Below, one piece after another: positions 49,740 through 63,652 of a stretch of 63,652 nucleotides of DNA (position 1 is its first letter; each line of letters opens with the position of its first letter). The notes under the pieces are model-generated. The model saw only the letters and a list, made by a program, of their open reading frames with translations, was not told the origin of the DNA and searched no databases. The position numbers were made by a program, and so were the translations under genes. Origin of the DNA: a virus. Where the stretch lies: positions 1-63,652 of the IMG/VR virus record IMGVR_UViG_3300030109_004674; one strand, given 5' to 3'.

Positions 49740-49747
49740 TATATTTA
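49740..49747 (+). promoter_or_regulatory. weak candidate promoter before the lysis operon part 2
   Basis: TATATTTA at 49740-49747, one base off TAnnTTTG, 24 bp before the ATG of the 135-aa gene. No clear -33 TTG. Confidence 0.3.
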
Positions 49748-49770
49748 TAACAAACAAAAAGTAAAGAGAA

Positions 49771-50178: not shown

Positions 50179-50180
50179 TT

Positions 50181-51141: not shown

Positions 51142-51211
51142 AGGAGGAGGTTGCAATTGTGGTGGAAGCAGACCAAGGCCAAGACCAAAGCCGTATGGGA
51201 AAGCGTATTAG
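51134..51211 (+). CDS. tiny Cys/Gly/Arg-rich ORF, 25 aa
   Basis: MFKGGGCNCGGSRPRPRPKPYGKAY, preceded by AAAAATG-type context and overlapping both neighbours (51141 and 51195). Such a CNCGG tag followed by Pro/Arg-rich tail is seen in small proteins of phage lysis regions. It is too short to judge; coding is uncertain. Confidence 0.35.
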   Translation: MFKGGGCNCGGSRPRPRPKPYGKAY

Positions 51212-51845
51212 AGAAGTTATAATCTTGGCATTATTAATTGTATTGATTATGCTAGGCGTAGATTCGTGCAAGAACAAATCAAAGATGTACGAACAAGCAA
51301 CTGCTATAAACAATTACCAGGATACAATACTGAGATACTCTGACAGAGAGGGGGAGCTTGTCGATTACAATAAATCTTTAAAATTAAACTTAAAAGTTGC
51401 CTTGGAGAATGTGGATGGACTTAAGGGGGATTTGAAGAGATTAAAACTAAAGAAACCTAAAGTAATTGTAAAGTACAAGAACACAGTAAGAATAGATTCA
51501 GTAGAAGTGGAGCACGAAATTATCCTTCCTTGTGATGAGTTTAGTTACGCATTCAATGTAGACAGCTCTAATTACTCGATTACAGGGCTTCTAACGGACA
51601 AAAAACTTTCCTTTGATAGAATATCTATACCAAACAATCAAACCTTTATTGTAGCCGACAAGAGAGAGAAGTGGTATAAGTCAAAACAATATGTTGTTGT
51701 AGTTGACAACTCTAACCCATATGTCGTTTCTAGCGGGCTTCAGTCATACACAATAACACCAAGAAAGAAACCACATGAAAAGTGGTATACTAAGCTTGGA
51801 GCAGGCTTTGTTCTCGGTGTATTATTTAGCAATTCTATAAAATAG
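51195..51845 (+). CDS. spanin-like membrane protein, 216 aa
   Basis: An N-terminal transmembrane helix (VIILALLIVLIMLGV) ending at a DSC site (residues about 22-24) that could be a lipoprotein cleavage-like position. It is followed by a coiled-coil stretch (MYEQATAINNYQDTILRYSDREGELVDYNKSLKLNLKV) and strands. The layout, an inner-membrane helix plus a long periplasmic region placed after amidase and holin-like genes, suits an i-spanin or unimolecular spanin. The ATG at 51195 is preferred to a GTG at 51159. The gene end overlaps the convergent minus-strand gene by 24 bp. Confidence 0.6.
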   Translation: MGKRIREVIILALLIVLIMLGVDSCKNKSKMYEQATAINNYQDTILRYSDREGELVDYNKSLKLNLKVALENVDGLKGDLKRLKLKKPKVIVKYKNTVRIDSVEVEHEIILPCDEFSYAFNVDSSNYSITGLLTDKKLSFDRISIPNNQTFIVADKREKWYKSKQYVVVVDNSNPYVVSSGLQSYTITPRKKPHEKWYTKLGAGFVLGVLFSNSIK

Positions 51846-52160
51846 AAAAGAAGCTCCAGATCCAGCACATGCGTATGCAAATAATTTACCTGTAGATTGA
51901 AGACAAGTAAATTCGATACCCATAAAAAAATACATTACTATACCCATCCAGAATCCAAAACACAAAGGACAGTTTACTAACTGACCAAAGAAGTATTGAA
52001 TCCTTTGTTTTTTAGTTGGCTTGAATTCAGGAGTTTCTACCTTCTCCCATGTTTCATCATCTAATGATATAAAATCTCTGACACCTTTAAATAGGCTAGA
52101 ATATGTTACTATAAACGTACCACCTGCAGTGGCAAACAAAAACAATATAAGTTCACTCAT
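51822..52160 (-). CDS. small membrane protein with CPLCFGFW motif (DUF1360-like), 112 aa
   Basis: Three hydrophobic segments: LILFLFATAGGTFIVTYS at the N-terminus, CPLCFGFWMGIVMYFFMG around residues 64-81, and the C-terminal FAYACAGSGASFLFYRIA. The Cys-x-x-Cys-x-Gly-Phe-Trp motif beside a membrane helix is typical of DUF1360-like proteins in phages and bacteria; its function is unknown. It is the last gene of the leftward arm and converges with the lysis operon (24-bp overlap). Confidence 0.65.
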   Translation of the reverse strand: MSELILFLFATAGGTFIVTYSSLFKGVRDFISLDDETWEKVETPEFKPTKKQRIQYFFGQLVNCPLCFGFWMGIVMYFFMGIEFTCLQSTGKLFAYACAGSGASFLFYRIAK

Positions 52161-52183
52161 TACTCTTTACTCTTTAGTTATTT

Positions 52184-52429
52184 TTATGACTTGTAAGTCT
52201 GATTTTTTTGATTGTAGTTATCTAATGAACCACCTTCATAATTGTTCGGATCTTCGTACAATTCCATTAGTCTACTAACCGCTTCACTTGCTCCTTCGTA
52301 AACTTCCTTTTTTTCTCCAATGTATTTTTCACCATCGTAAGAATCCATAGATGATTTTTCGTAACAATCGTACTTGATAATGAAGCCATTCTTAGCAGGC
52401 TCCATTTTGAGGTTTTTAAATTTAGCCAT
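52184..52429 (-). CDS. hypothetical protein, 81 aa
   Basis: Not recognised. Acidic, Tyr/Asp-rich (KFKNLKMEPAKNGFIIKYDCYEKSSMDSYDGEKYIGEKKEVYEG) with a beta-type start and a helical middle. It begins 5 bp after the stop of the 101-aa gene. No membrane segment. Confidence 0.58.
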   Translation of the reverse strand: MAKFKNLKMEPAKNGFIIKYDCYEKSSMDSYDGEKYIGEKKEVYEGASEAVSRLMELYEDPNNYEGGSLDNYNQKNQTYKS

Positions 52430-52434
52430 AATAT

Positions 52435-52740
52435 TTAATTAGATATCCAATTACTAATGTCATCAACTGCAACCTGTAATCCTGCAGCTGTTGCAGCCCA
52501 AGTTCCTTTTCCTACTACATCCTGTATGTCAAACTGTAATAATTCATCTTCACCTTTTTTGATAGTGATAAGAAAAGAAGTGCTTCTCTTAACTAAAGGG
52601 GAAGCGATATTCTTGTTTACAATGTTGTGATGAACTGAAAGACCATTCTTGTTTAATGTATTCCAGTTGGTGTTGTCGCTGCTCCATGCTATAGCTTTAG
52701 TCCATGTCGCATCTACCGTTGCTCCGTTATCTATGTACAT
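52435..52740 (-). CDS. hypothetical protein, 101 aa
   Basis: Not recognised. Beta-rich with Trp-containing strands (NGATVDATWTKAIAWSSDNTNWNTLNKNGLSVHHNIVNKN) and a hydrophobic C-terminal half, like a small beta-sandwich. Located between the HTH gene (5 bp upstream) and the 81-aa gene. Confidence 0.58.
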   Translation of the reverse strand: MYIDNGATVDATWTKAIAWSSDNTNWNTLNKNGLSVHHNIVNKNIASPLVKRSTSFLITIKKGEDELLQFDIQDVVGKGTWAATAAGLQVAVDDISNWISN

Positions 52741-52745
52741 AATAA

Positions 52746-52985
52746 TTAAGTTTTGCTTATAAGAATATTGTATTTCAAACCAAATTTCTCACAAGTCTTT
52801 TTTAATACAGTATGAGCGTGTGATGTCGCCCCCTTTTCACTTTTCTCTATAGTGTCTACCTTGATGTATATTGCCCTAGACAATTGCATAGGTGTCATTT
52901 TTAGGTGCTCTTCTCTAATCAGTTTAAGCAACTGAGGCATTTCGTTAATGTTTGCCTCAACCCAAAACTCTTTCTCGTTTGCCAT
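52746..52985 (-). CDS. small HTH protein, 79 aa
   Basis: The middle of the protein (LIREEHLKMTPMQLSRAIYIKVDTIEKSEKG, residues about 20-50) has lambda-repressor-like HTH spacing: a first helix, a turn, then a recognition helix with S-R and E-K. It lacks an effector domain, so it may be a Cro-like repressor or antirepressor. Its start overlaps the previous gene by 29 bp. Confidence 0.6.
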   Translation of the reverse strand: MANEKEFWVEANINEMPQLLKLIREEHLKMTPMQLSRAIYIKVDTIEKSEKGATSHAHTVLKKTCEKFGLKYNILISKT

Positions 52986-53211
52986 TTACTCCTGTTTGTA
53001 TATCTAACTCTTCTACGGTGTTGTCTACAATTAGTTTTCTCTTCTTCCTTCCGTCTTTTTCCGGTTCTCTTAAAAACACCGCAGTCAAATCTTTGTCACT
53101 ATCACGCATCTTCCATCTTCTGTAATGAGATATCTCTGTTGTATTCCATCTCTCTGGCTCCAGCACCTTTCCGTTCTCATCAGTTATTCTCAGTGTGACA
53201 AACTTGCTCAT
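52957..53211 (-). CDS. hypothetical basic protein, 84 aa
   Basis: Not recognised. Basic and strand-rich, with many Arg/Glu (KFVTLRITDENGKVLEPERWNTTEISHYRRWKMRDSDKDLTAVFLREPEKDGRKKRK). It could be a small nucleic-acid- or protein-binding domain. It is the first gene after the promoter element at 53228-53235. Confidence 0.58.
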   Translation of the reverse strand: MSKFVTLRITDENGKVLEPERWNTTEISHYRRWKMRDSDKDLTAVFLREPEKDGRKKRKLIVDNTVEELDIQTGVNGKRERVLG

Positions 53212-53227
53212 TTACTACGTCTTTAAA

Positions 53228-53235
53228 CAAATATA
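53228..53235 (-). promoter_or_regulatory. candidate promoter -7 element, leftward
   Basis: Minus strand TATATTTG, 16 bp before the 84-aa gene and about 40 bp after the terminator at 53274-53298. It starts the last leftward transcript. No well-spaced -33 TTG. Confidence 0.45.
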
Positions 53236-53273
53236 ATAAAAAAACCAAGAGATGGCTTTCTTAAATAAAGACA

Positions 53274-53298
53274 TAAAAAAAGAGGATTTCTCCTCTTT
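53274..53298 (-). terminator. intrinsic terminator after the SSB-like gene
   Basis: Perfect 8-bp stem AAAGAGGA/TCCTCTTT with a 4-nt loop, and on the minus strand a run of T directly after it. It starts 22 bp downstream of the 93-aa gene stop. Confidence 0.9.
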
Positions 53299-53320
53299 AA
53301 GTCTAGTGTCTACCTTTGTT

Positions 53321-53602
53321 TTAGAACGGGAGATCATCAGAATCAGTGGCAGAAGCAGGTTGTGCGGCTTGTACGTCTTCTTGCTTTTGTCTGCGTTGCT
53401 CTTCAGTCTCAAACTCACTCATCTTCCCTGCAACAAACTTTCCTGACTTACCATTCTTGCTCCACTCTTTCATCCATCCTGCTAACCTCATTTTGGTTCC
53501 GTCTCCCAAGATAATATGTCCTGTGTAGTCTGGTTGATTTCCTGTCTTTTCTCTGTTCTCAAACATTATGAACTGCATTGGTTCATCTTTCTCATGTGCC
53601 AT
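53321..53602 (-). CDS. short SSB-like protein with DDLPF tip, 93 aa
   Basis: Residues about 24-45 (QPDYTGHIILGDGTKMRLAGWM) look like strands of a small OB-type fold, followed by a Gln/Glu-rich linker and an acidic end of DSDDLPF. The last residues are the hallmark SSB C-terminal tip that recruits replication proteins. The protein is shorter than bacterial SSBs (about 150-180 aa), so the OB domain would be minimal; it may be a phage single-strand binding protein or a decoy for the host SSB partners. Followed by a strong terminator. Confidence 0.6.
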   Translation of the reverse strand: MAHEKDEPMQFIMFENREKTGNQPDYTGHIILGDGTKMRLAGWMKEWSKNGKSGKFVAGKMSEFETEEQRRQKQEDVQAAQPASATDSDDLPF

Positions 53603-53607
53603 AATTA

Positions 53608-54021
53608 CTAAATTAAATTGTTACTTATTTTAATTACTAAATCGTCTACCTTTTTATTGGTGTTAGGTAGAAAAACCAAATCTTTATTTCCTTCTTGATA
53701 GATCTTGTATTTAAGAAGTTTAAATTTATTGTTTGCATCAGGTGTTACTACACCTTTTGTATCGATGTAAAGCTTAATATCATTATACGGAACAACAAAA
53801 TCAACCTTCATGTAAATCTGCCTTACAGTTGTATTAGTGGCATCTTTAAAACCTGGAGAGAGAATAACCTTATATTGCATTTCAAAAGGGATGTTATGCG
53901 TTTTAAACATTTGATACATCCTTAATTCTCTTTTTGAATCGAATAAAACACCATCAAACAATACTTTCTTTGCATTGTATTTATTCTTTTTCTTTCCTCC
54001 TTTCCAGCTGTTGTAGCTCAT
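53608..54021 (-). CDS. DUF1064-family PD-(D/E)XK nuclease, 137 aa
   Basis: The N-terminal block NKYNAKKVLFDGVLFDSKRELRMYQMF is typical of DUF1064 (endonuclease of phages). The predicted catalytic core is the acid near RQIYMKVDFVVPYND and the D-x-K of LYIDTKGV (residues about 84-96). The family is thought to cut branched or recombination DNA and often accompanies Rad52/RecT-type proteins, as here. It overlaps the 133-aa gene by 41 bp. Confidence 0.78.
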   Translation of the reverse strand: MSYNSWKGGKKKNKYNAKKVLFDGVLFDSKRELRMYQMFKTHNIPFEMQYKVILSPGFKDATNTTVRQIYMKVDFVVPYNDIKLYIDTKGVVTPDANNKFKLLKYKIYQEGNKDLVFLPNTNKKVDDLVIKISNNLI

Positions 54022-54382
54022 CTTTACTCATGTACTCTGGTGCTTGAGATAAAGATAATGTTTTTACAAATTCTATCTTAATTATTTTTAATGTGTTTTG
54101 CTCTAATTTAGATTGATATTTATCCTTCCCATACCTTTCTTTGTATGCCCTGTTTAAGAACGCTTTATTCTGCATTATCTTAATTCGATCATGACCAACC
54201 ACAAGTACGTTTTTTAACACAGCAACAGTAGGTTTAAGGTTTTCTTTTGACTTTGGTCTCCCACGCCCAACGTGTTGCTCATGGACAGTCCACTTGCTTA
54301 GACGAATCATTCTATGAGGGTATTTTTTCTCTAAATCGTTTATGTAATCTTGTTGACTAAATACTGAATCTTGCATTACCAC
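53981..54382 (-). CDS. hypothetical basic protein, 133 aa
   Basis: Not recognised. Basic and mostly helical, with RMIRLSKWTVHEQHVGRGRPKSKENLKPTVAVLKNV as the central block, and a Lys/Glu-rich C-terminus. The GRGRPKSKE stretch resembles an AT-hook and could contact DNA. It overlaps both the nuclease gene and the 94-aa gene. Confidence 0.58.
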   Translation of the reverse strand: MVMQDSVFSQQDYINDLEKKYPHRMIRLSKWTVHEQHVGRGRPKSKENLKPTVAVLKNVLVVGHDRIKIMQNKAFLNRAYKERYGKDKYQSKLEQNTLKIIKIEFVKTLSLSQAPEYMSKDELQQLERRKEKE

Positions 54383-54660
54383 TTTACTTTGTCAGCCCAA
54401 TATGCAGCAGACATCTTACCTTTTCGTATGTTCTTTGCGTGTCTTGCCTTAAATGATTTTTTTCTAGCTTTTTCTTTTTCGCTCTTAGGGTTTTTCCCCG
54501 CACCGCTTACACCTTGCTGTCCAAACCTTATAACTTTAGTTTTATCTCCTTCTTTTGCAACTACGACGTGAGATTTTTTGGGATGACTAGGTGTTCTTTT
54601 TGGCTTATTATATCCACTTAAGTTTAGTTTTCTTAAAGCGGCTTTCCCTCTTTCAGACAT
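54376..54660 (-). CDS. conserved small basic phage protein, 94 aa
   Basis: Very basic, with the segment KVIRFGQQGVSGAGKNPKSEKEKARKKSFKARHAKNIRKGKMSAAYWADKVKW filling the C-terminal half. This RFG...SFKARHxxNIxKGKMSAAYWA pattern is widespread in aquatic phages. Its function is not established; it is likely DNA- or RNA-binding, as shown by its charge. It lies directly before the 133-aa gene with overlap. Confidence 0.75.
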   Translation of the reverse strand: MSERGKAALRKLNLSGYNKPKRTPSHPKKSHVVVAKEGDKTKVIRFGQQGVSGAGKNPKSEKEKARKKSFKARHAKNIRKGKMSAAYWADKVKW

Positions 54661-54698
54661 AATGTTCTTTTTGTTAGTGTGTAATAAATATACAGAAA

Positions 54699-55061
54699 TT
54701 AAAGATATAGCATCTTCATTCTAGATATCATTCTTTCCATTTCGATGTTATAAAAATCATCAAAACTCTCCATTGGCTTCCCTTTACTTTCCCAAGCAAT
54801 ATAAAGAATATTACGCATCCTTTGCCTTTTTGTTTTACCATTAACTAACTCTTCCGCATCTATCTTAGTTTCTTGTAATGCCTTTATCTGTTCCGAGTTT
54901 ATTTCGTTGTCAGACAAGTGAAACTTAATATAATTGTTAGCCATCTTATATAGTGTGGCAGCGTCTTCAGCAGACATTTCTCCAGTTTGTATTACGATCT
55001 TACAGGTATTGTCTTTTAACGTCCTGAAAGAGTCTACGATTCCATCTTTTACGATATTCAT
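54699..55061 (-). CDS. hypothetical protein, 120 aa
   Basis: Not recognised. Helical with acidic and basic stretches (DAATLYKMANNYIKFHLSDNEINSEQIKALQETKIDAEELVNGKTKRQRMRNILYIAW). No clear motif. Separated by 38 bp from the next gene downstream. A TATATTTA element lies at 54685-54692 on the minus strand, which could be a weak promoter for the 94-aa gene. Confidence 0.6.
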   Translation of the reverse strand: MNIVKDGIVDSFRTLKDNTCKIVIQTGEMSAEDAATLYKMANNYIKFHLSDNEINSEQIKALQETKIDAEELVNGKTKRQRMRNILYIAWESKGKPMESFDDFYNIEMERMISRMKMLYL

Positions 55062-55075
55062 ATCTTTCAGGTTGT

Positions 55076-55348
55076 TTATAATTCGTACTTGTGTTTCTCT
55101 ATTTTACGCTTTGCTAGAAGGTTCCTGACTTGAACAAAATTGTTTTGCTCTGTTGCCAACTCTATTTCTGAAACAAGATTTTTATAGTTGTTTAGTATTT
55201 GATTTAGCAGATACGCTTCATCTGTCTTGTCACGTAAGTGTTTGAATAATTCGTCTTTCTCTTTTCCCATTTCTATAAATTTTAACATTATTGTAAAAGC
55301 AACCTTCGGTAGTCGCTCAAGCTCGTTTACAAGGGCGTTAGTATTCAT
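55076..55348 (-). CDS. hypothetical helical protein, 90 aa
   Basis: Not recognised. All-helical and charged, with coiled-coil potential (NELERLPKVAFTIMLKFIEMGKEKDELFKHLRDKTDEAYLLNQILNNYKNLVSEIE). It overlaps the preceding 75-aa gene by 11 bp. Similar in character to the other small replication-arm helical proteins. Confidence 0.58.
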   Translation of the reverse strand: MNTNALVNELERLPKVAFTIMLKFIEMGKEKDELFKHLRDKTDEAYLLNQILNNYKNLVSEIELATEQNNFVQVRNLLAKRKIEKHKYEL

Positions 55349-55565
55349 TTATTAAATCTTTTAATCTTGATTTAATCTCATCTATTTCAGCACCTTCAAT
55401 TTCTTCTTCAAATTTTTTTAAAACAAACGAAATCCTAACACTAAATAAATCCAATAACTCTTTGGTGCATTGGTTTACTTCGGTATTAGTTAAAATTGTC
55501 TTAAATAATATTTCAACTATTTTTTCTTCCATCGTTACAGTATTTATTTTTAATATTGTACGCAA
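55338..55565 (-). CDS. hypothetical protein, 75 aa
   Basis: Not recognised. Helical and acidic (MEEKIVEILFKTILTNTEVNQCTKELLDLFSVRISFVLKKFEEEIEGAEIDEIKSRL). It starts 1 bp after the stop of the 62-aa gene and overlaps the 90-aa gene by 11 bp, a compact operon. Confidence 0.55.
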   Translation of the reverse strand: MRTILKINTVTMEEKIVEILFKTILTNTEVNQCTKELLDLFSVRISFVLKKFEEEIEGAEIDEIKSRLKDLINEY

Positions 55566-55757
55566 TTATTTAGGAAACCATTCAGTTATTTCTGTATCAA
55601 CATATTCTTGTCCACCAACTGCATTTATCATGTCATTAGTGTGAGCTACTGCTTCATTGTATCTAATAAACACTTGGTCATCAGAGGTTGCGTAAAAACT
55701 CGAAAATTGTTGTCCAAGTCCTGTTTCGAAAACCTCATTAGCTTTTTCTTGTGTCAT
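55566..55757 (-). CDS. hypothetical acidic protein, 63 aa
   Basis: Not recognised. Starts MTQEKANEVFETGLGQQFSSFYATS and is acidic with a helical N-terminus. The ATG at 55757 is preferred because it follows AAACTTATAAAAATG, a version of the shared leader. A longer frame from 55823 would overlap the 80-aa gene more deeply. Confidence 0.5.
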   Translation of the reverse strand: MTQEKANEVFETGLGQQFSSFYATSDDQVFIRYNEAVAHTNDMINAVGGQEYVDTEITEWFPK

Positions 55758-55776
55758 TTTTATAAGTTTAACTTTG

Positions 55777-56019
55777 TTATACAAAAGTGTCCCAACACCA
55801 GATAGGAGTTTTTTCACCAACATAAGAGCCGCTCACATTGTAAGTAAAATGCTCTAAAGCATCCTCTTCTGTCATCTCTATCTTTAGTATTTCAATACAT
55901 TTTGCTACAGAGTATATTAACCTCATTTCGTTTTCTTCGACACCAATTACAGCGTCATCAAACCCATCCGCTTTTAAGAATTCATCCTCATAATATTGCT
56001 CTATAATTTGCTCTAACAT
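55777..56019 (-). CDS. hypothetical acidic protein, 80 aa
   Basis: Not recognised. Acidic, helical at the N-terminus (LEQIIEQYYEDEFLKADGFDDAVIGVEENEMRLIYSVAKCIEIL), with a Trp/Cys-containing C-terminus (TPIWCWDTF). It overlaps the 94-aa gene by 7 bp. Confidence 0.58.
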   Translation of the reverse strand: MLEQIIEQYYEDEFLKADGFDDAVIGVEENEMRLIYSVAKCIEILKIEMTEEDALEHFTYNVSGSYVGEKTPIWCWDTFV

Positions 56020-56297
56020 TTCTCTTTTTCTTTTATGACTGCAACCAATTCCTCTAAAAGTTTAACCTGTGCCTCTTCATGGCTTTTGCAATATGGGTAT
56101 CTAGTTGTATCCTTTGGTCTATGGTAAACTCCATTAGCGTAAATCTTATAACCATACTCTTTCCCGGACTGTTCAATCCATGCAACATATCCCCATTTTT
56201 CTCTAAACCAATTAAATACTTCACAGTAAGTTACATTGTCATAATACCCTAATTGTCTTACAGCAGATAGTTCTTCAGAAGTTATTACGTCACTCAT
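56013..56297 (-). CDS. conserved phage hypothetical protein, 94 aa
   Basis: EVFNWFREKWGYVAWIEQSGKEYGYKIYANGV is a segment type common in small phage proteins of unknown function. The rest is helical and acidic. It lies just downstream of the terminator at 56311-56335, so it begins a new transcript that continues to 53321. Confidence 0.65.
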   Translation of the reverse strand: MSDVITSEELSAVRQLGYYDNVTYCEVFNWFREKWGYVAWIEQSGKEYGYKIYANGVYHRPKDTTRYPYCKSHEEAQVKLLEELVAVIKEKEKC

Positions 56298-56310
56298 TTT
56301 TATGTTGTTT

Positions 56311-56335
56311 AAAAAACCCCCTCAATTAATGAGGG
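56311..56335 (-). terminator. intrinsic terminator of the ammonium operon
   Basis: Minus strand GAGGG... reading: stem CCCTC (56319-56323) paired with GAGGG (56331-56335), followed by TTTTTT on the minus strand. It lies about 80 bp downstream of the barrel-gene stop. Confidence 0.8.
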
Positions 56336-56343
56336 AGTCTTAA

Positions 56344-56412
56344 TTAATCTAAATTGCTATCAATGATTGAATCTATGGCTAAATCATCAATGTAATCTTC
56401 TATAAAGCACAT
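56344..56412 (-). CDS. tiny acidic ORF, 22 aa
   Basis: MCFIEDYIDDLAIDSIIDSNLD: rich in Asp and Ile, starting 3 bp after the barrel-gene stop, before the terminator. It may be translated by reinitiation. Coding is uncertain because it is so short; it could equally be a leader-type remnant. Confidence 0.3.
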   Translation of the reverse strand: MCFIEDYIDDLAIDSIIDSNLD

Positions 56413-56414
56413 TT

Positions 56415-57407
56415 TTAATTAAAAGAATAAACCGCTGCTAGTACAATACTAGATAGGTTATCCTTTTGTTCAAATACTTGCTCACTGGCTTTGTCTAATC
56501 TATACTCTAACTTTAGATTTAGATTCTCTTTAGCGTAATCTAAAGTAGTAGTAAAGTTTATAACATTTGCATCTGGGCCAATTGCTCCAACTCCGTCTCC
56601 AGTTTCAGCAAAGTATTCACCTCTCAAACCTGCGGTTAATTTACCAAAAGAATATTGAGGGTATAAAGCTGCTCCGTAGAAGCCGTTTCCATCAGTATCA
56701 TTGTACGTTGAATTAACCCCTAGGTAAAACTTTTTCGACAAATTATAACCACCTGTCAAATCAATTTGAAATGTAGCTTCAGATGCGGGATCTTGCTTTC
56801 CAAACAAGAAGTTTAAATACGTACTCTTATATGCTAGTACAGCACCTAGCGTACTGAAATTAGACGGGTTGAAATCCGTTGCATCAGTTGCGTTTAAAAC
56901 AGCTAACATGGCAGTAAAGTCATCAGACAAAGCGATGTCTGCTTTTAAACCACTATGAGAAAAAGGGCCATAAGAAAACATGTAAGAAGTTGAGTAATTA
57001 AAGTTTCCCGAAGGGCTAATCACTTCATACCCAAGAAAGGTGTTAAAGTTACCCATTGTTAAGGTCATCCTATTACTAACATCCCAATAAACATAAAGCT
57101 GATTAATGATGTTAGAACTCCCGGTAGATAAGAAAACAGCATCTTCTCCTCTAGGCCCAAAAACTAGGTCTGCCACAACACCTGTGTTCTTTGTATCGTA
57201 AGAACTAATAAGGTTGAACATACCCAAACTGAAACCATTTAAGTTAGCAAACGATGTAGCTGGTGCTAAATCTGTTTTGGCTGTACTAAGGTTTCTTCTG
57301 TAGTAAACGTCTACACTTCCTTCTAAAGAAAGGTTTGACTTTAAACTATCCTGACCGTAAGATAGTATTGTAGTAGCTAATAATATTAATGTAAATAGTT
57401 TTTTCAT
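56415..57407 (-). CDS. outer-membrane beta-barrel porin (BBP2/OmpL-like), 330 aa
   Basis: A signal peptide (residues 1-18, KKLFTLILLATTILSYG then Q) is followed by alternating amphipathic strands for the whole length: LEGSVDVYYRRN, FSLGMFNLISSYD, GVVADLVFGPR, INQLYVYWDVSNRMTLTMGNFNTFLGYE and many more, ending in an aromatic-rich VYSFN. This is the layout of the 'putative beta-barrel porin-2' family in Bacteroidetes outer membranes. The ATG at 57407 is used because the upstream ATG at 57431 would put residues before a proper signal peptide. It is co-transcribed with amtB, and a weak hairpin (57423-57441) lies between. It may let ammonium or small solutes through the outer membrane, or alter the receptor surface. 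Confidence 0.75.
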   Translation of the reverse strand: MKKLFTLILLATTILSYGQDSLKSNLSLEGSVDVYYRRNLSTAKTDLAPATSFANLNGFSLGMFNLISSYDTKNTGVVADLVFGPRGEDAVFLSTGSSNIINQLYVYWDVSNRMTLTMGNFNTFLGYEVISPSGNFNYSTSYMFSYGPFSHSGLKADIALSDDFTAMLAVLNATDATDFNPSNFSTLGAVLAYKSTYLNFLFGKQDPASEATFQIDLTGGYNLSKKFYLGVNSTYNDTDGNGFYGAALYPQYSFGKLTAGLRGEYFAETGDGVGAIGPDANVINFTTTLDYAKENLNLKLEYRLDKASEQVFEQKDNLSSIVLAAVYSFN

Positions 57408-57422
57408 TTTGTGTAAAATTAA

Positions 57423-57441
57423 AGGGGGCATAACACCCCCT
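57423..57441 (-). terminator. intergenic hairpin between amtB and the barrel gene
   Basis: 6-bp stem AGGGGG/CCCCCT with a 7-nt loop; on the minus strand it is followed by TTTAATTTT. It may lower expression of the barrel gene rather than end the transcript. Confidence 0.45.
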
Positions 57442-57446
57442 GGTTA

Positions 57447-58694
57447 TTAATGTTCATTAAGACGAAAGTCAGAGTAAGCAGGCATGCCATGCTCAGAGCT
57501 GTCCAATCCTTCAAGCTCTTCTTTTTTACTAACTCTTAACCCCATAGTTTTCTTAATGGTGAATAGTATTATAAAAGAAGTAATCAGACAGAAAGCTCCA
57601 ATTACAGAAACCCCTATAAGTTGTGTAAGGAATTGACTACCACTAGCTAATTCTCCAAAGATACCCACTGCAAGAGTACCCCAGATTCCGCATCCAAGGT
57701 GTACTGCGATGGCTCCTACTGGATCATCTAATTTAAGCTTGTCTAACAAGGCAACCGCAAGGACTACTATGATACCTCCAATAAGCCCAACTACAACAGA
57801 TTCGTTTGGACTCATCTGATCGGCACCTGCAGTGATAGCGACTAATCCTCCCAAGATTCCATTAAGGAACATTGTTAAATCAAATGCTTTATCCTTAATT
57901 AAAGATGTAATAGCGGCACCAAAACCACCTGCAGCTGCTGCAAGACAAGTAGTAACTAAGGTTAGTGATGTTAACGCTGGGTCAGCACTTAATACGCTAC
58001 CACCGTTAAATCCAAACCAACCAAGCCATAATATTAATACTCCTGCCGTAGCAAAAGGAATATTATGACCTAAAATAGGGAAAGACTTTCCGTTTATTTT
58101 AAGATACTTTCCAATCCTTGGGCCTAACAGCCATACAGCCACTAATGCTGCCCATCCGCCAACAGAGTGAACTAATGTACTTCCTGCAAAGTCGTAGAAT
58201 CCTAGGCCATCTAGCCATCCTCCTCCCCACTTCCAGCTACCTACTATAGGGTATACAAGCCCTACATAGATTAGACTGAATAGCATGAAGCTTGTTAGCT
58301 TGATACGCTCTGCCACAGCCCCACTTACAATAGTTGCTGCTGTTGCGGCAAACATACCCTGGAACAAGAAATCTGTCCACCAAGTATAACCTCCTGAAGC
58401 GTACTCGGCAGTCATACCATTTTCTGGTGAAGCTATCCCAAAACCAGCGAATTTAATAATCCCCATGCTACCCTCTTCAAACCCAGGGTACATGAGATTA
58501 AATCCTCCTATGTAGTAGACTAAAAGTCCCATACAAATAATGAAGATATTTTTGAATAGGATGTTGATGGTATTTTTTTGTCTTGTCAGTCCTATCTCCA
58601 ACAAGCTAAATCCTAAGTGCATAAAGAACACCAAACCTGTACAGACCATCATCCACAGGTTATTTACTGTTAACATTTCCATTTCTTCTTTCAA
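57447..58694 (-). CDS. amtB: ammonium transporter (Amt/Mep/Rh), 415 aa
   Basis: A complete ammonium channel with about 11 transmembrane helices. Signature blocks are in order: FLFQGMFAATAATIVSGAVAERIK (F115 of the first gate), SWKWGGGWL (W156), DFAGSTLVHSVGG with D168 and H176, GWFGFNGGS (F229, second gate) and DPVGAIAVHLGCGIWGT with H332. The twin His pore residues (H168/H318 in the E. coli channel) and the binding Asp are all present, so it is likely active. It overlaps glnK by 4 bp (ATGA), so the two are translationally coupled. It would be a rare example in a bacterial virus. The sequence does not show whether it came from the host recently. Confidence 0.95.
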   Translation of the reverse strand: MKEEMEMLTVNNLWMMVCTGLVFFMHLGFSLLEIGLTRQKNTINILFKNIFIICMGLLVYYIGGFNLMYPGFEEGSMGIIKFAGFGIASPENGMTAEYASGGYTWWTDFLFQGMFAATAATIVSGAVAERIKLTSFMLFSLIYVGLVYPIVGSWKWGGGWLDGLGFYDFAGSTLVHSVGGWAALVAVWLLGPRIGKYLKINGKSFPILGHNIPFATAGVLILWLGWFGFNGGSVLSADPALTSLTLVTTCLAAAAGGFGAAITSLIKDKAFDLTMFLNGILGGLVAITAGADQMSPNESVVVGLIGGIIVVLAVALLDKLKLDDPVGAIAVHLGCGIWGTLAVGIFGELASGSQFLTQLIGVSVIGAFCLITSFIILFTIKKTMGLRVSKKEELEGLDSSEHGMPAYSDFRLNEH

Positions 58695-59029
58695 TTAAGT
58701 GTTTGATTTCCTCTTTCTTTTGTTCGGATTCGATATGCTTCTTGCACATCGCTGACAAAGATTTTGCCGTCTCCGACTTCGCCTGTGTAGGCAGAATCAA
58801 GAATAGCGTTAATTGTCCTTTCTAAAAACTCGTCACTAACGACGATTGAAAGATACCTCCTCTGAATTTCAGAAGTAGAATATGGAATACCTCGATACTT
58901 CCTATCGAGCTGCTCGTTACCAACTCCTGTACAATCCCAGTAACTAAAAAAAGTTACCTTAACTGCCAATAGAGCTGATTTCACCTCATCAAATTGAGCT
59001 TTTCTGATGATACAATCCACCTTTTTCAT
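58691..59029 (-). CDS. glnK: P-II nitrogen regulator (GlnK/GlnB), 112 aa
   Basis: Full-length P-II trimer subunit. The T-loop region (GVGNEQLDRKYRGIPYSTSE, residues 35-54) has Tyr50 at the position of the uridylylated Tyr51. The B-loop YTGEVGDGKIFV (81-92) with Lys89 and the C-loop RIRTKERG (100-107) bind ATP/ADP and 2-oxoglutarate. P-II proteins of this type plug AmtB when nitrogen is plentiful. The T-loop differs from the enterobacterial one, as usual in Bacteroidetes. Start at the ATG at 59029 in the usual MKK form. Confidence 0.95.
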   Translation of the reverse strand: MKKVDCIIRKAQFDEVKSALLAVKVTFFSYWDCTGVGNEQLDRKYRGIPYSTSEIQRRYLSIVVSDEFLERTINAILDSAYTGEVGDGKIFVSDVQEAYRIRTKERGNQTLN

Positions 59030-59078
59030 AAGCGATCTATTTATTGGTTAAAAATTAAAAATGCAAAGTTAAACTATA

Positions 59079-59312
59079 TTATAGGTTTACGTCTAGTTTG
59101 ACATACCCTTTTGGAAAGAATTTCATCTTATCTTCATCCCATTCGGTGTCATGGTATTCAAAACAAAATTTTGGCCCAAAACATTTAAAAGCCTTTTCTC
59201 TGCCCTCGGTACTGTCTTTTGCTTCAAATACTGCCACAGTATCTTTGTCTAATGTTTTTCCGTTTACGGAGTGAGCGTGATCTCCTCCAAATGTTACGTA
59301 TGTTTTTGCCAT
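59079..59312 (-). CDS. conserved hypothetical protein, 77 aa
   Basis: AKTYVTFGGDHAHSVNGKTLDKDTVAVFEAKDS...REKAFKCFGPKFCFEYHD. The GGDHAHSVNGK segment is distinctive, and similar short proteins occur in several aquatic phages; the function is unknown. It sits 49 bp before glnK in the same direction and is the first gene after the multibranched RNA (59330-59502). It may therefore be part of the nitrogen operon or just the upstream neighbour. Confidence 0.65.
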   Translation of the reverse strand: MAKTYVTFGGDHAHSVNGKTLDKDTVAVFEAKDSTEGREKAFKCFGPKFCFEYHDTEWDEDKMKFFPKGYVKLDVNL

Positions 59313-59329
59313 TTATTTACAGTTTTAAA

Positions 59330-59502
59330 AACTCTCCAAGTCCTCCAAGTGGAATGATAGTAGTGTAATCCTACGACACAGTACCATCTAACTTCAAAAC
59401 TAACACTCTTGGAAGTGTTGTGATATAACAATCTGATTGTTATTCTTTTTCAACTGGAGTGATTACCAATACTCACTTGCTTATCCATTAGCCTGGAGAG
59501 TT
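59330..59502 (-). ncRNA. candidate multibranched structured RNA upstream of the nitrogen operon
   Basis: About 173 nt without an ORF form a nested set of helices. The closing stem is AACTCTCCA (59330-59338) with TGGAGAGTT (59494-59502), 9 bp. Inside are GATAGTA (59356-59362) with TACCATC (59382-59388) stacked on GTGT/ACAC, AACACT (59402-59407) with AGTGTT (59414-59419), ATAACAAT (59425-59432) with ATTGTTAT (59436-59443) and GAGT/ACTC (59457-59474). On the minus strand the closing stem is followed by TTTTT, 17 nt upstream of the next ATG. It could be a cis-regulatory leader (terminator-type switch) of the 77-aa gene and glnK-amtB, or a small RNA. No known class was recognised. Confidence 0.62.
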
Positions 59503-59516
59503 ATATTTTAATTAAG

Positions 59517-59846
59517 TTATTTTGATTTTATTTTCTTAACAAATTGATTTAATTTAGCCTCCCATTTCTTAGGAAATTTTTGTCCTCCATTAACGGCTTT
59601 TAGTAACGATGTTTCAGGTAGCCCAGCAGCCTTTTCAATACCAGCAATGCTTAGTAGTTCTTTGTTTTCTTTAATCCAAACAATGTCTTTGTTGCGTTCA
59701 GAGTTTTTAAAGTTTTCGATAGCTTTAACTAAATACAAATGGCTAATACTTCCAATTGAAATGTTTTCTTTCACAAAATCTATAACTGTTTCATCTGTCC
59801 ACCTAAATGTATGAACTGATTTTCTTTTTTTTACTTCTCTGTCCAT
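59517..59846 (-). CDS. small HTH-like protein, 109 aa
   Basis: Basic N-terminus (DREVKKRKSVHTFRWTDETVIDFVKENISIGS), helical middle, then a compact domain (ENKELLSIAGIEKAAGLPETSLLKAVNGGQKFPKKWEAKLNQFVKKIK). The last 50 residues are paralogous to the whole next upstream protein (60 aa), so the two arose by duplication. Its form, a short helix-turn-helix with IEKAAGLPETSLLKA, suggests DNA binding. It lies just upstream of the structured RNA. Confidence 0.6.
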   Translation of the reverse strand: MDREVKKRKSVHTFRWTDETVIDFVKENISIGSISHLYLVKAIENFKNSERNKDIVWIKENKELLSIAGIEKAAGLPETSLLKAVNGGQKFPKKWEAKLNQFVKKIKSK

Positions 59847-59848
59847 TA

Positions 59849-60031
59849 CTAAAATGTTTTTAATTCTTGAACGAATTTATTCACGGAAGCTAGCCAGTTT
59901 TCAGGTAGTTCTCTAACACCACTCAGTGCTTTTTGCAAAGTACTTTTAGGCATGTGTAATTCCTTCTCAATCATATTCACATTAAGAAAGGGCTTGTTTT
60001 TTTTAAGCCAATTTATTGATCTGTCTTTCAT
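59849..60031 (-). CDS. small HTH-like protein, 60 aa
   Basis: Aligned with the C-terminal half of the 109-aa protein: WLKKNKPFLNVNMIEKELHMPKSTLQKALSGVRELPENWLASVNKFVQELK has the same N-K, IEK, P-x-S/T-x-L-x-KA, G, P-x-x-W and N-x-FV pattern. A Cro-like or antirepressor-like DNA-binding role is plausible. It lies 2 bp upstream of the 109-aa gene. Confidence 0.6.
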   Translation of the reverse strand: MKDRSINWLKKNKPFLNVNMIEKELHMPKSTLQKALSGVRELPENWLASVNKFVQELKTF

Positions 60032-60064
60032 TTTATTTTGTCGTTAATAAATTTTCTCCTTCTT

Positions 60065-60214
60065 TTACTCGTAATTGTTATCGTCATAAATTATTCTTCC
60101 ATCAATTTTGATAGCATGATACAATAGTGCTTCTTGAACTTCTCCAATAAAAGCTTGAAATGTTTCTTTTGAATGTCCATGCTCTTCCAGATATTCTTCT
60201 AATAATTCTTCCAT
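60065..60214 (-). CDS. hypothetical small acidic protein, 49 aa
   Basis: MEELLEEYLEEHGHSKETFQAFIGEVQEALLYHAIKIDGRIIYDDNNYE, acidic and helical. It is the first gene after the structured RNA at 60250-60384 and before the paralogous HTH pair. The ATG follows AAAAACTAAATATTT. Function unknown. Confidence 0.5.
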   Translation of the reverse strand: MEELLEEYLEEHGHSKETFQAFIGEVQEALLYHAIKIDGRIIYDDNNYE

Positions 60215-60249
60215 AAATATTTAGTTTTTAAGGTTATACTTTTAATGTT

Positions 60250-60384
60250 TAAAAATGAACAGGGGCTAGCTATTTCCTTATTCGACTTATTGGGAGTGAA
60301 TATGCAATAGTTCCTACGCTAAAAGCATTGAAAGTAAAATAGCTTGTAAAGTTCTGCCCCTGTTCTATCAAAGAACGATCTTTG
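60250..60384 (-). ncRNA. candidate structured RNA after the primase-helicase
   Basis: GAACAGGGGC (60257-60266) pairs perfectly with GCCCCTGTTC (60356-60365). Nested inside, AGCTATTT (60268-60275) pairs with AAATAGCT (60337-60344). A further 6-bp hairpin CAAAGA/TCTTTG lies at 60368-60383. On the minus strand the closing stem is followed by ATTTTT. The stem pair is far too long-range (about 90 nt) for a simple terminator, so it is a cis-regulatory leader of the 49-aa gene, a small RNA, or an elaborate 3' end of the helicase message. Confidence 0.58.
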
Positions 60385-62223
60385 TTAAAAAGGCACTTCT
60401 GGTCTGCTTTTTCTAAAAACATCATCATTGAGCCAATCATCCTCAAAAGATGTTTGTTCAGGTTCCTTGTCAATCCAAGACCCATTTAATTGCAGTGTTT
60501 TCTGCCCATCTTTACTGCATGGATAAAATCTACTACAATTTGAGATGTATTTAAAATCTGTCATACCTTCTTCACCTAAGTGTTTCCATTTTATTTTTTG
60601 TATATATACTGTAGTGATATTTAACACCCTATTCCGATATATAGCAATACCTACGTCTGTCATGTCGTACCAAGATTTTGACCCAGAGATATCGTATAAA
60701 GTCGGCACCTCGTACTGTCCATTGTCCAGGCTGTTTTTGTCTTTTACTTTGTCCATTTTTCTTGGGTGTGCTACTAAGAAAACTGCAACATCAAAGTTTT
60801 GTTTGAACATTGTAATCTTGTTAAGTGCCTTTTCGATGTACTGTGTTTCGGAACCATACTTTCCATATTGATGGTTAATCTTATTCCATGGATCAATTGT
60901 AAAGCCCTTTATTCCGTGTCTTAAAACCAGCTGTTTGCCAAGATCGATTAACTCATCAAGCATTATTGACCCGGATTTTGGTTTGATAAAAAAGAAATGT
61001 TTCTCAATAAAATCTAATGCTGACTCAAGTTCCATTTCGTTCATTCTTAATCCTTTCCCGTGAAAGAAGGCTTTGCCTACAATTATTTCCGCATACCTAT
61101 AGGCTAAAAACTGTATTGGTAAATGCTCTGGAGAGTATATTCCAAACTTCCAACCACAATTTACAGCAAGTAAAGTCTCTACCTGGTTAACCATGGATGA
61201 CTTACCATGAGTAGGTATACCTGTCCAGGTGTAAACTAAGCCTGTTTTCCAGGAAACTAAATCATCAAGACCTAGTTCATCATCGTATGTTGACTCCAAG
61301 CCAATAACATCTCCCTTCGCTACACCATTTCTAAACAAGTCTAAAGTTCCTTTTCTAATTTCAGTCATAGGAACAATACCTTTTATAGGGTAAAATTCAG
61401 CGTCTGTTATAAGCTTAAGCACCCCTTCTTCTCCGTGTTTTAAAAGAACCTCATTAGCATCCTTACATCCATCAGGGTATTTAACAATCTTACATCTCTC
61501 TCTGCCTAATCTTCTTGATAATTCTTTTCCTAATCTAGTCCCTGGCTCATCACCGTCAGTGGCTATATATATTTCTTTAGGTATGCCGTTTTCGAAAAAT
61601 GATGCACAGTTATCTAGGTATTGAAGATTGTTGTTGCCTTTACTGGCACCGTTAGGAACAGAGATAGCGTATCGAATTCCTGCTTCAAAAAAAGCCAACA
61701 CATCCATTTCACCTTCACATATTACAACCTGATTGTCCTGGATGTTATCTATATTGTAGAATATCAATTCAGCACCAGACTCCATCTTAAACATCTTGTC
61801 CGCTGTCCTGTATTTTTTGTTTACTATTTGCCCGTTCCTGAAATAGTTAAATATTATACACGTTACTTCCTTTTGTTTCTGAGGCATATAAACCTTTTCA
61901 CAAGTAACTTTGTTAGCCATAAGTGTTGAAGGTGATATCCCTCTTTTCTGAAACTCCATTACAACATTATCAGGCAAGTCTGTAGGGTTGTACTTGGGTA
62001 ATATGTACTCTTTATAAGGCTTCTTGTATTTATTTTTTTGTTGTACAGATCCATTCCATCCGCAATGATGGCAATTGTATATACCTTCATCTATATTTAC
62101 AGACAAGCATGGCTCTTTTTGATTCTTAGGCTTTCTAGTATGAGAACATTTAGGACATATTGTTTTTTCTTGCCCTGAAGTTCTTTTTAAATTGATTCCT
62201 AGTTGATATAAGTCTTGTATCAT
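60385..62223 (-). CDS. T7-gp4-like primase-helicase, 612 aa
   Basis: Three parts are visible. A zinc ribbon has C23-x2-C26 and C51-x2-C54, so it can read DNA for primer sites. The TOPRIM primase core has CEGEMDVL (residues 169-176) and DGDEPGTR (223-230). The C-terminal RecA-type helicase has Walker A GIPTHGKS (335-342) and later QNFDVAVFLVAHPRKM, then the ISGSKSWYDMTDVGIAIYRN segment. It unwinds and primes at the fork. It follows the DUF4373 gene by 1 bp. No DNA polymerase gene is found, so this probably recruits the host polymerase. Confidence 0.92.
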   Translation of the reverse strand: MIQDLYQLGINLKRTSGQEKTICPKCSHTRKPKNQKEPCLSVNIDEGIYNCHHCGWNGSVQQKNKYKKPYKEYILPKYNPTDLPDNVVMEFQKRGISPSTLMANKVTCEKVYMPQKQKEVTCIIFNYFRNGQIVNKKYRTADKMFKMESGAELIFYNIDNIQDNQVVICEGEMDVLAFFEAGIRYAISVPNGASKGNNNLQYLDNCASFFENGIPKEIYIATDGDEPGTRLGKELSRRLGRERCKIVKYPDGCKDANEVLLKHGEEGVLKLITDAEFYPIKGIVPMTEIRKGTLDLFRNGVAKGDVIGLESTYDDELGLDDLVSWKTGLVYTWTGIPTHGKSSMVNQVETLLAVNCGWKFGIYSPEHLPIQFLAYRYAEIIVGKAFFHGKGLRMNEMELESALDFIEKHFFFIKPKSGSIMLDELIDLGKQLVLRHGIKGFTIDPWNKINHQYGKYGSETQYIEKALNKITMFKQNFDVAVFLVAHPRKMDKVKDKNSLDNGQYEVPTLYDISGSKSWYDMTDVGIAIYRNRVLNITTVYIQKIKWKHLGEEGMTDFKYISNCSRFYPCSKDGQKTLQLNGSWIDKEPEQTSFEDDWLNDDVFRKSRPEVPF

Positions 62224-62224
62224 G

Positions 62225-62920
62225 TTACATTACCATTTTTCTATCTGTTTTTAAATCTATTTCCCCTGGGTTTGGGAAGTCTCGTCTTAAACATCCTCTG
62301 AAAAACGACCTATAATCTTTGTACTTTTTTCCTTTAGAGTTTAAGTAGTCAATTAATTCGTCTCTTTTGTTTTTTAGTTGTGTTCGTGTTATATGTTTAA
62401 AGTTTTCAGATTCCAGAAGTTGATTGCAAAACAGATTAAAGTAGTCAGGATTATGTAAAACTTGTATTGATTTAACTTTTGCAGGATCAATTTCTTTTTG
62501 TATTTCTGGAAAGATTGTATCCTCCTGTGATTCTTTTTTGTCTTTACTCTTCTGCCATCTAGCGGCAGCTGCGTTCTTACCTCTTTCTCTTGCCATGTCG
62601 TGTTTTGTCATTCTTTCGATTAGTGATGTTGACCAGAAATTTTTCCCGTCAGATTTAAAAAGTTCAAATTCATTTATACAGTCATCTACAAATTCTTTGC
62701 ATTTTTCAGTACTGCAGTTTGGTAGGGATAGGGCCAAAGAAGGGAAGTCATATTTCTTTTGTGTGGAAATCTTATATCCCTTCTGTTGAGCCATAACCTC
62801 AACAATAATCCAGTACCAACCGTAACCTTCTGCTCCCCAAATGCTCATTAATGCTTTTATTTTTGAGTCTTCGTGAGCATTCATATCGTGGCTAAACCAG
62901 TACGTTTTGCTCTTGTTCAT
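62225..62920 (-). CDS. DUF4373/Lin1244-type replication-associated protein, 231 aa
   Basis: The first part (YWFSHDMNAHEDSKIKALMSIWGAEGYGWYWIIVEVMAQQKGYKI) is the typical Lin1244/Lin1753-like N-terminal domain (DUF4373), seen in replication-initiator-like proteins of phages and plasmids. A basic helical region (KHDMARERGKNAAAARWQKSKDKKESQ) and a C-terminal helical domain (HITRTQLKNKRDELIDYLNSKGKKYKDYRSFF...RR) follow. The latter fits a loader-type DNA/helicase contact domain. Next to the primase-helicase, it is probably the helicase loader or origin factor. Confidence 0.72.
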   Translation of the reverse strand: MNKSKTYWFSHDMNAHEDSKIKALMSIWGAEGYGWYWIIVEVMAQQKGYKISTQKKYDFPSLALSLPNCSTEKCKEFVDDCINEFELFKSDGKNFWSTSLIERMTKHDMARERGKNAAAARWQKSKDKKESQEDTIFPEIQKEIDPAKVKSIQVLHNPDYFNLFCNQLLESENFKHITRTQLKNKRDELIDYLNSKGKKYKDYRSFFRGCLRRDFPNPGEIDLKTDRKMVM

Positions 62921-62941
62921 TATTGGTAGTTGTGATTATTG

Positions 62942-63463
62942 TTATGATTTAGGTATTGTTGCACGAGGCGAACTTGCACCGTGTTTCTTGATAACACTTC
63001 CTGGAATTATTTCTCCTGTGTCATCGTCTAGAACACCACCTGTACCATGGGCTTTTTTCATTATTGATTCAATTTCTTTCAATTTAAGAGTCTCTTCATC
63101 AACAATTTTCTTTTGAGAAACCCATCCATCGTAATGATCGAAACTATGTGTGTCAGCTGAATTTGACACAGCAAGCTTAATACCGTTGTACTCGGTACCT
63201 CCTTTGCCATGTTTTTCTATTTCATCTTTTACATGGGGTGTCAATTCCTTTTTCGCCACGGTAGCGTACTCAAGTATAGCACAAACCCTAGTATAAGTAT
63301 CCAGCACATCATCCTCACCACTGTTTAGTATTGATTCAATATATGTCTGGGCTTGTACCTTAAGACCTTCCTTTGTAAAATTCAGCTTTGGCGGCAGTAT
63401 TTCGTTTCTAACTTGCTCTTTCTCGTTTGGTACGTCATCAAATATCACGTCATCTTTACTCAT
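62942..63463 (-). CDS. phage recombination-module hypothetical protein, 173 aa
   Basis: Not recognised by name. Acidic start (SKDDVIFDDVPNEKEQVRNEIL), helical core (VQAQTYIESILNSGEDDVLDTYTRVCAILEYATVAKKEL) and a C-terminal part that may be a small beta domain (GTEYNGIKLAVSNSADTHSFDHYDGW). A protein of this type often lies next to annealing proteins in phages. It overlaps the Rad52-like stop by 3 bp (ATGA). Confidence 0.6.
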   Translation of the reverse strand: MSKDDVIFDDVPNEKEQVRNEILPPKLNFTKEGLKVQAQTYIESILNSGEDDVLDTYTRVCAILEYATVAKKELTPHVKDEIEKHGKGGTEYNGIKLAVSNSADTHSFDHYDGWVSQKKIVDEETLKLKEIESIMKKAHGTGGVLDDDTGEIIPGSVIKKHGASSPRATIPKS

Positions 63464-63652
63464 AATCCTTGCTTTTTAAGTGCAGAATACCTGCTGTTAA
63501 CCATTTGTTTTAATTCAACTTCAGTTTCTTCTCCTAATTCTAAAAACTTAATGTCAAGTTGTAAAGCTCCAGACTCTTCTTTTATCGCATCAGAGGAGAC
63601 AAAAGAGTTTATCTTATTGACCACCTTGTTATAAGATTTCTCTCGCTCTTCC
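63460..63652 (-). CDS. Rad52-like annealing protein, C-terminal part (continues from position 1)
   Basis: An open frame enters from the right edge with no start codon and ends at the stop at 63460. Its first residues (EERERKSYN after the joint) continue the frame cut at position 1. Joining the window ends with the 3-base overlap TCC keeps the reading frame. The tail is charged and helical, with two Glu/Lys-rich stretches, as expected for the C-terminus of an annealing protein that contacts partners or SSB. The stop overlaps the start of the next gene (63463) as ATGA, so the two are probably translationally coupled. Confidence 0.7.
   Translation of the reverse strand, partial: EEREKSYNKVVNKINSFVSSDAIKEESGALQLDIKFLELGEETEVELKQMVNSRYSALKKQGL

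Follow-up and report, generated by a model that had tools for sequence, protein, structure and literature searches.

The viral genome analyzed here, IMG/VR record IMGVR_UViG_3300030109_004674 (63,652 bases; the whole record is referred to as the window), carries genes for a P-II signaling protein, an Amt ammonium channel, and a BBP2 outer membrane porin side by side on its minus strand. We consider it likely that this trio is a flavobacterial unit that was captured by phages, probably once, and that now works as a phage-adapted auxiliary metabolic cassette importing ammonium. The three genes are the following.

58691..59029, minus strand: P-II signaling protein, GlnK type, 112 aa (PF00543, E 5.6e-20)
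57447..58682, minus strand: Amt ammonium channel, 411 aa, start ATG at 58682 placed from relatives
56415..57407, minus strand: BBP2 outer membrane porin (OmpL-like), 330 aa, start placed from relatives

The channel matches PF00909 over the entire profile (E 9.5e-118; 393.8 bits against a cut-off of 23.2; positions 1-399 of 399). It also exceeds the cut-off of TIGR00836 (409.9 bits; cut-off, 343.3) and scores higher with TIGR03644, the "marine subtype" (429.8), yet stays under the cut-off of that family (514). We compared nine AmtB positions with E. coli K-12 AmtB and found eight of them kept (F107, W148, D160, H168, W212, F215, S219, and H318), so that the twin histidines, the phenylalanine gate, Asp160, Trp148, and Ser219 are all present. 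The ninth, S263, is an asparagine in the window, as in 75 of 79 host rows. The statement of the first-pass annotation that every pore residue is intact therefore holds for all compared positions except this one. Each of the eight positions is kept in 26 or 27 of the 27 viral rows, the exceptions being two gaps and one methionine at W148.

The P-II protein is of the Bacteroidota form, with a T-loop one residue shorter than that of E. coli GlnK. It falls below the cut-offs of the E. coli-type NCBIfam equivalogs (70.6 versus 202 and 64.2 versus 181); P-II proteins of the PDB align to it across nearly the full length, and in the tree it groups with other viral and amt-linked flavobacterial P-II proteins. 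Together with the PF00543 match, its position 8 nt before amt upholds the earlier call of a P-II regulator. Similarly, the earlier call of a barrel is upheld at the family level: the porin matches PF07642 (E 2.5e-63; 214.8 bits against a cut-off of 26.2; profile positions 2-339 of 339), and its N terminus, MKKLFTLILLATTILSYGQ, is signal-peptide-like, as judged from the sequence. Relatives place its start at 57407 rather than 57431. No NCBIfam or PHROG family matched the porin of the window.

One open reading frame (ORF) spans the joined ends of the window, as expected of a complete genome closing on itself.

1-803 joined to 63460-63652, minus strand: 331-aa ORF, unbroken across the joined window ends

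Structural genes, including that of the portal protein, are on the plus strand, and replication and small genes, including the primase-helicase gene, are on the minus strand. Read along the minus strand, the primase gene is followed by a few small genes and then by P-II, Amt, and the porin. The cassette is flanked by the primase/helicase, a replication-initiation-like protein, and small phage genes, with the portal on the other arm, in good agreement with the first-pass annotation, which had put three codirectional genes in the replication arm. The candidate terminase is a 674-aa protein with a weak phrog_5989 match, and ARAGORN found no tRNA in the window. The virus is probably a phage of marine flavobacteria.

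The cassette is not confined to this genome. From an IMG/VR scan with the Amt protein, the best 80 of 98 relatives were kept, and 28 of these are at least 84% identical. One of them (L002; L numbers are our locus labels) is a second record of the same phage, which leaves 27 and, with the window, 28 contigs, near-duplicates such as L005/L006, L016/L017, and L019/L020 among them. All three genes are present in 24 of the 28, including L028 with its broken frames, while the other four contigs (L015, L024, L026, and L030) are cut off within the cassette. The Amt that follows in identity (L027; 57%) and more distant ones lie in loci without P-II or porin matches to the window proteins. Alignment scans of IMG/VR, which reach close relatives only, gave 28 loci for the porin and 30 for P-II; these are the Amt contigs, except for contigs broken within or next to the cassette (L179, L181, L205, and L206) and the distant P-II loci L208 and L209. 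The INPHARED matches number 19 records for Amt and 14 for P-II, all at less than 60% identity, and none for BBP2 or the portal; fecal "Bacteriophage sp." records are among these matches.

The second record of the phage, IMGVR_UViG_3300030110_003801 (128,733 bp; loci L002, L022, L212, and L213), looks composite. It contains this phage, with the window ends bridged by 10 N, and a second phage, which has a diverged cassette and a portal of its own, the portal being 22 to 25% identical to that of the window.

Beyond the cassette and a 94-aa companion described below, the window has no more than a few stretches or proteins in common with the other contigs. When at least two shared flank proteins are required, at either 50% or 70% identity, the 28 contigs fall into nine groups; two of these (L011 and L021) hold only two or three flank proteins, and the terminase of L011 is common to another group. 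By our own reading of the groupings, the sampled backbones would number five to seven, with mosaic exchange. Matches to the window portal occur in 3 of the 27 records, namely, the twin record at 100% and L020 and L029 at 22 to 23%. Terminase_6N is found in 12 of the 27 (10 over the cut-off), and in L012 to L014 it lies inside a 445-aa ORF that is about 97% alike among them. The 636-aa terminase of L017 is 23% identical to the 674-aa candidate of the window over 166 residues. Of 16 records searched for the 674-aa protein, the twin record alone contained it. The cassette of the window is nearest to those of L003, L005, and L006, whose flanks fall in another group. Furthermore, the genes have diverged unequally. 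Between L009 and L023, P-II is identical, the porin 98.6% identical, and amt 91.5% identical, and between the window and L005 the synonymous divergence (dS) is 0.19 for P-II versus 0.81 for amt, which points to recombination within the cassette. Among 14 chosen pairs, the ratio of nonsynonymous to synonymous divergence (dN/dS), where computable, is 0.00 to 0.15 for P-II, 0.00 to 0.16 for Amt, and, with the exception of one pair, 0.05 to 0.14 for BBP2, indicating that the cassette copies are under purifying selection.

To place the origin of the unit, we scanned bacterial genomes with the viral Amt alignment and obtained 79 loci. The best host Amt proteins, from Leeuwenhoekiella, Gillisia, and a Flavobacteriales metagenome-assembled genome (MAG), are 79% identical. 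Gene order was read in the 63 loci that have 2.6 kb or more of sequence on each side (the remaining 16 were dropped, and porins unlike that of the window would escape): 26 have P-II-Amt-BBP2, 13 have BBP2-P-II-Amt, 16 have P-II-Amt, 6 have Amt alone, and 2 have Amt-P-II. The first-pass annotation would have been refuted by barrel homologues never linked to amtB in hosts; BBP2 in fact adjoins P-II/Amt in 39 of these 63 loci. In quick maximum-likelihood trees with Shimodaira-Hasegawa-like approximate likelihood ratio test (SH-aLRT) support, the 25 viral Amt rows form one group (99) next to the Flavobacteriales MAG locus L100 (96 together), and the 26 viral BBP2 rows form one group (100) next to a Dokdonia locus (95). 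The L100 contig ends inside Amt, and its neighbors look chromosomal by eye only. Host gene order and flavobacterial relatives in the trees both support the earlier suggestion of a host-derived ammonium uptake unit, and one capture of the whole unit from Flavobacteriales would be the simplest reading, short of proof.

The first-pass annotation had called such a cassette apparently unusual, but glnK-amtB-ompL is already known from two marine viral scaffolds, St07_scmB_167 and St14_oxy_4266E (Gazitua et al. 2020, PMC8115048). That paper describes a Flavobacteriales origin, a porin barrel, a viral clade apart from the hosts, and a predicted promoter before glnK, with a terminator after amtB and the porin next, and it suggests that the viral P-II competes with the host P-II. 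P-II and amt are also summarized among ocean viral genes in PMC6359870. As far as that description of the viral PII-1 scaffolds goes (PMC8115048), the window agrees with them in the gene trio, its order in a virus, the promoter/terminator layout, and the Flavobacteriales origin. It differs in size, the scaffolds being 35 and 13 kb versus a genome of 63.7 kb closing on itself, and, whereas the two published contigs cluster together, the cassette here occurs in several backbones. The literature searched, subscription papers being outside its scope, held no other report of the trio. What we add to a trio already known in phages are related contigs, several backbones, recombination, and the failure to find GlnD in host-type genomes; no separate literature search was made on cross-backbone spread, recombination, or GlnD absence. 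The set thereby grows from two scaffolds to 28 related contigs, near-duplicates included, and is consistent with one capture and subsequent spread through phage lineages.

Chromosomal P-II-Amt-BBP2 loci of flavobacteria share the gene set with the window and, in 26 of 63 loci, the order; the Amt proteins of such loci in Flagellimonas, Allomuricauda, and Sinomicrobium are 73 to 76% identical. The viral copies, however, group apart, and P-II position 45 and Tyr51 vary in phages and hardly in hosts. E. coli glnK-amtB has the same tandem of P-II and Amt, with eight of nine compared AmtB positions kept in the window, and differs in a T-loop one residue longer, a glutamine at position 39, and the presence of GlnD, which was not found in the host group. 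Presumably, no porin lies alongside E. coli glnK-amtB. An ammonium transporter of an Ostreococcus tauri virus is described as raising uptake in infected cells (cited in PMC8115048). That system is likewise a virus-borne ammonium transporter and differs in belonging to a virus of a eukaryote. The algal-virus transporter, reportedly the subject of work by Monier et al. in 2017, is said to come without P-II and porin.

In the scenario we favor, a P-II/amt/porin unit of a flavobacterium would have been taken up by phages, probably once. Within the replication arm, it would be transcribed from a Bacteroidota-type promoter of its own, perhaps early in infection. The porin would pass ammonium through the outer membrane, Amt would carry it through the inner membrane, the phage P-II would tune the channel, and infected cells in nitrogen-poor water would keep making nucleotides and protein. 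The boost in ammonium import proposed by the first-pass annotation, and with it a benefit to the phage, would be plausible outcomes. Of this scenario, the sequences establish the gene identities, the pore residues, the host origin, purifying selection, the presence in several backbones, and recombination; promoter use, early timing, ammonium import, and a benefit to the phage are inferred. If phages do have such dedicated import, infected flavobacteria might act as a separate sink for nitrogen where sea water is poor in nutrients.

Several points weigh against this scenario. Host loci were sought by two peptide patterns, and a closer donor could therefore be missed. The 25 viral rows of the P-II tree group with an SH-aLRT value of only 77 (96 with L100). 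BBP2 is nearest to Dokdonia and not to L100, whose contig ends inside Amt, so that the three genes may not share one donor. Backbone grouping varies with the threshold: a single shared flank protein gives one group at 50% identity and four at 70%. The excepted BBP2 pair, L009/L023, has a dN/dS of 0.5 on very few changes, and several dS values exceed 1. In L028, the P-II and Amt frames are broken (9665-11238) in an otherwise complete cassette, by decay or sequencing error. A sigma-70 consensus scan gave nothing above shuffles (10 versus a mean of 15.3). Finally, the porin is missing from all isolate phages of INPHARED.

With regard to P-II control, the GlnD domain PF08335 was found in 0 of 14 named host-type genomes; in a control scan of 14 genomes, E. 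coli, Caulobacter, and Corynebacterium matched. The viral GlnK account in PMC8115048 rests on uridylylation of a conserved Tyr51. Because PF08335 was not found in any of the 14 host-type genomes, this model may not hold in flavobacteria, which is directly testable. If the host resembles these genomes, P-II is probably controlled by ATP/ADP and 2-oxoglutarate instead of uridylylation. The earlier view that P-II keeps the channel under control thus overstated the textbook route, control by ligand binding only being likelier.

Arg47 and Tyr51 of the T-loop are both present in the P-II of the window. In the E. coli complex, Arg47 is the residue that plugs the pore of AmtB, and all 25 viral rows have it. 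Tyr51 is present in 67 of 67 host rows and 22 of 25 viral rows; Phe takes its place in L010 and His in L016/L017, apparently a single phage. At position 45, 66 of 67 host rows have Val, and 21 of 25 viral rows have Ser, Arg, or Lys. These changes at Tyr51 and Val45 are a hint of altered control, not a demonstration. Position 39, where Gln39 presumably belongs to the 2-oxoglutarate/Mg site of E. coli type P-II, is Glu in all 25 viral rows and in 65 of the 67 host rows; Glu39 is a trait of amt-linked Bacteroidota P-II and not phage-specific. A T-loop-wide rewiring of the phage P-II was considered and rejected, as a single T-loop position stands out among 57 host-conserved ones.

The changes at position 45 and the loss of Tyr51 (3 of 25 viral rows, none of 67 host rows) would suit an alternative in which the phage P-II is the very point of the cassette: with its diverged T-loop it would mix with host P-II as a poor blocker, or occupy Amt without closing it, and the channels of host and phage alike would stay open regardless of the nitrogen state of the cell. 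We regard this as unlikely, given that Arg47 is invariant in the viral rows, that only 3 of 57 host-conserved positions of the whole protein differ in the majority of phages, with one of the three in the T-loop, and that P-II is under strong purifying selection.

The following elements surround and separate the genes.

59064..59071, minus strand: TAACTTTG, a TAnnTTTG match beginning 42 nt upstream of the P-II ATG
57423..57441, minus strand: terminator-like hairpin between amt and the porin gene, with a weak T run, from a consensus scan
56306..56345, minus strand: stem-loop with a T run after the porin gene, -17.3 kcal/mol, probable terminator
56344..56412, minus strand: 22-aa micro-ORF MCFIEDYIDDLAIDSIIDSNLD between the porin gene and the terminator

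The TAnnTTTG motif, which we take to be the Bacteroidota -7 box, begins 32 to 42 nt before P-II in 20 of the 25 viral rows, a count that includes near-duplicates; three further rows have TATATTCG and two (L016/L017) have none. A 4-bp overlap coupling translation of P-II and amt, as first annotated, would need a TTG start at 58694. It was rejected, as the ATG at 58682 follows the P-II stop by 8 nt, matching 24 other P-II/amt junctions, in which a TAA or TAG stop is followed by ATG 1 to 8 nt later. Of 26 viral cassettes having both genes, 21 carry a hairpin between amt and the porin gene, with differing stem sequences, and five, in which the gap is 3 to 11 nt, lack it. Because of this hairpin, possibly an attenuator, the trio may not be one simple transcript, and porin and channel may be produced in different amounts. 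The terminator claimed at the end of the cassette is backed by the stem-loop and T run after the porin gene, and stem-loops with other stem sequences were seen by eye at this place in L003, L009, and L023; the consensus scan, however, gives the stem on the plus strand only, and the extra hairpin precedes the porin gene. Of the three-gene nitrogen cassette as originally annotated, the genes, their line-up, and the phage genome stood, whereas the 4-bp overlap and a terminator-free run from amt to the porin did not.

The same hairpin bears on a second alternative, in which the porin mainly serves another use, such as a surface change against superinfection or general permeability, and is linked to amt only via the hosts. 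In addition to the hairpin in 21 of 26 cassettes, the variable porin order in hosts is compatible with this, as is the predicted structure: the model has many strands and a low-confidence mean predicted local distance difference test (pLDDT) score of 58, its nearest matches are general porins, e.g., BpsOmp38 and PorB, and there was no ammonium-specific match among them. Nevertheless, 26 of the 28 close IMG/VR porin relatives share a contig with an Amt relative, and in the remaining two cases the contig starts within amt (L179) or within the porin gene (L181), which makes a separate use quite improbable.

We are also doubtful of a stronger version of the favored scenario, namely, a phage-to-phage mobile nitrogen module that was captured once, has its own promoter and terminators, is exchanged between unrelated backbones, holds the channel open through a retuned P-II without host GlnD signaling, and often includes the RNA and the double-stranded RNA-binding domain (dsRBD)-like protein described below as members. 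Neutral cargo, a host insertion without a selected role, could account for the one broken copy (L028), and cassette function is read from sequence; it is nonetheless a very remote prospect because of the low dN/dS between diverged viral copies, and the cassette is kept in several backbones. An assembly chimera or mis-binned host DNA, toward which the composite-looking twin record with two different cassettes might point, can practically be dismissed because the cassette recurs in 27 other viral contigs; of the 27 cassette records, 10 have Terminase_6N over the cut-off and another three have a match to the window portal, the window ends join within an uninterrupted ORF, and window positions 47450-63644 are identical in the twin record, though possibly from the same reads.

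Additional features lie close to the cassette.

59330..59501, minus strand: candidate structured noncoding RNA, about 175 nt, with a strongly conserved core
Copies of the RNA candidate: L010 12446-12638; L016 6677-6855; L021 1677-1870; L026 2202-2364; L028 12351-12528; L029 4722-4909
59079-59312: 77-aa ORF, match to phrog_13997, a function-unknown PHROG
56013..56297, minus strand: 94-aa gene adjoining the cassette in most contigs
59517-59846 and 59849-60031, minus strand: two small proteins upstream of the cassette

The RNA core is present in 11 aligned viral sequences, including six other cassette phages (L016/L017 counted once) and five contigs with four distinct sequences (L218, L219, L220, and L222/L223), mostly short records without an Amt match. 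An exact 21-mer of the core occurs in 11 IMG/VR stretches, 7 of them on cassette contigs, and a related pattern, to which the window copy is not an exact match, occurs in 0 of 397 genomes of the Leeuwenhoekiella family. Rfam gave no match at E <= 1 at 59330-59501 and two subthreshold matches elsewhere in the window. For the core, the predicted fold has a closing stem plus hairpins; none of the 34 predicted pairs has changes in both bases, too few positions varying for a test of pairing. A P-II riboswitch was rejected because the position of the RNA relative to the cassette differs between phages, being upstream of P-II in the window, L016, L021, L026, and L029 and downstream of the porin gene in L010 and L028.

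The 94-aa gene has a relative in 23 of the 28 contigs; it is absent from L010, L021, and L029, while L026 and L030 end before it, and in L016/L017 it sits upstream of P-II instead. A scan with the single protein sequence found three loci, one of them in the twin record. Its model (pLDDT, 84) bears a weak resemblance to dsRNA-binding domains, the best PDB match being ADAR1 dsRBD3 at an E value of 0.059, with none at E <= 0.001, and we leave undecided whether it is an accessory of amt. For the micro-ORF, a single literal-string search found a frame of the same length in 9 of 26 BBP2-bearing cassettes; 7 of its 22 codons vary in amino acid and 5 synonymously only, and it is possibly a small member of the cassette, its coding being uncertain. 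The 77-aa ORF, which the first-pass annotation had included in the extent of the cassette, is a separate small gene. The protein encoded at 59517-59846 is 83% identical to one in L016, whose 171-kb contig is different in other respects, and 53% identical to one in L022.

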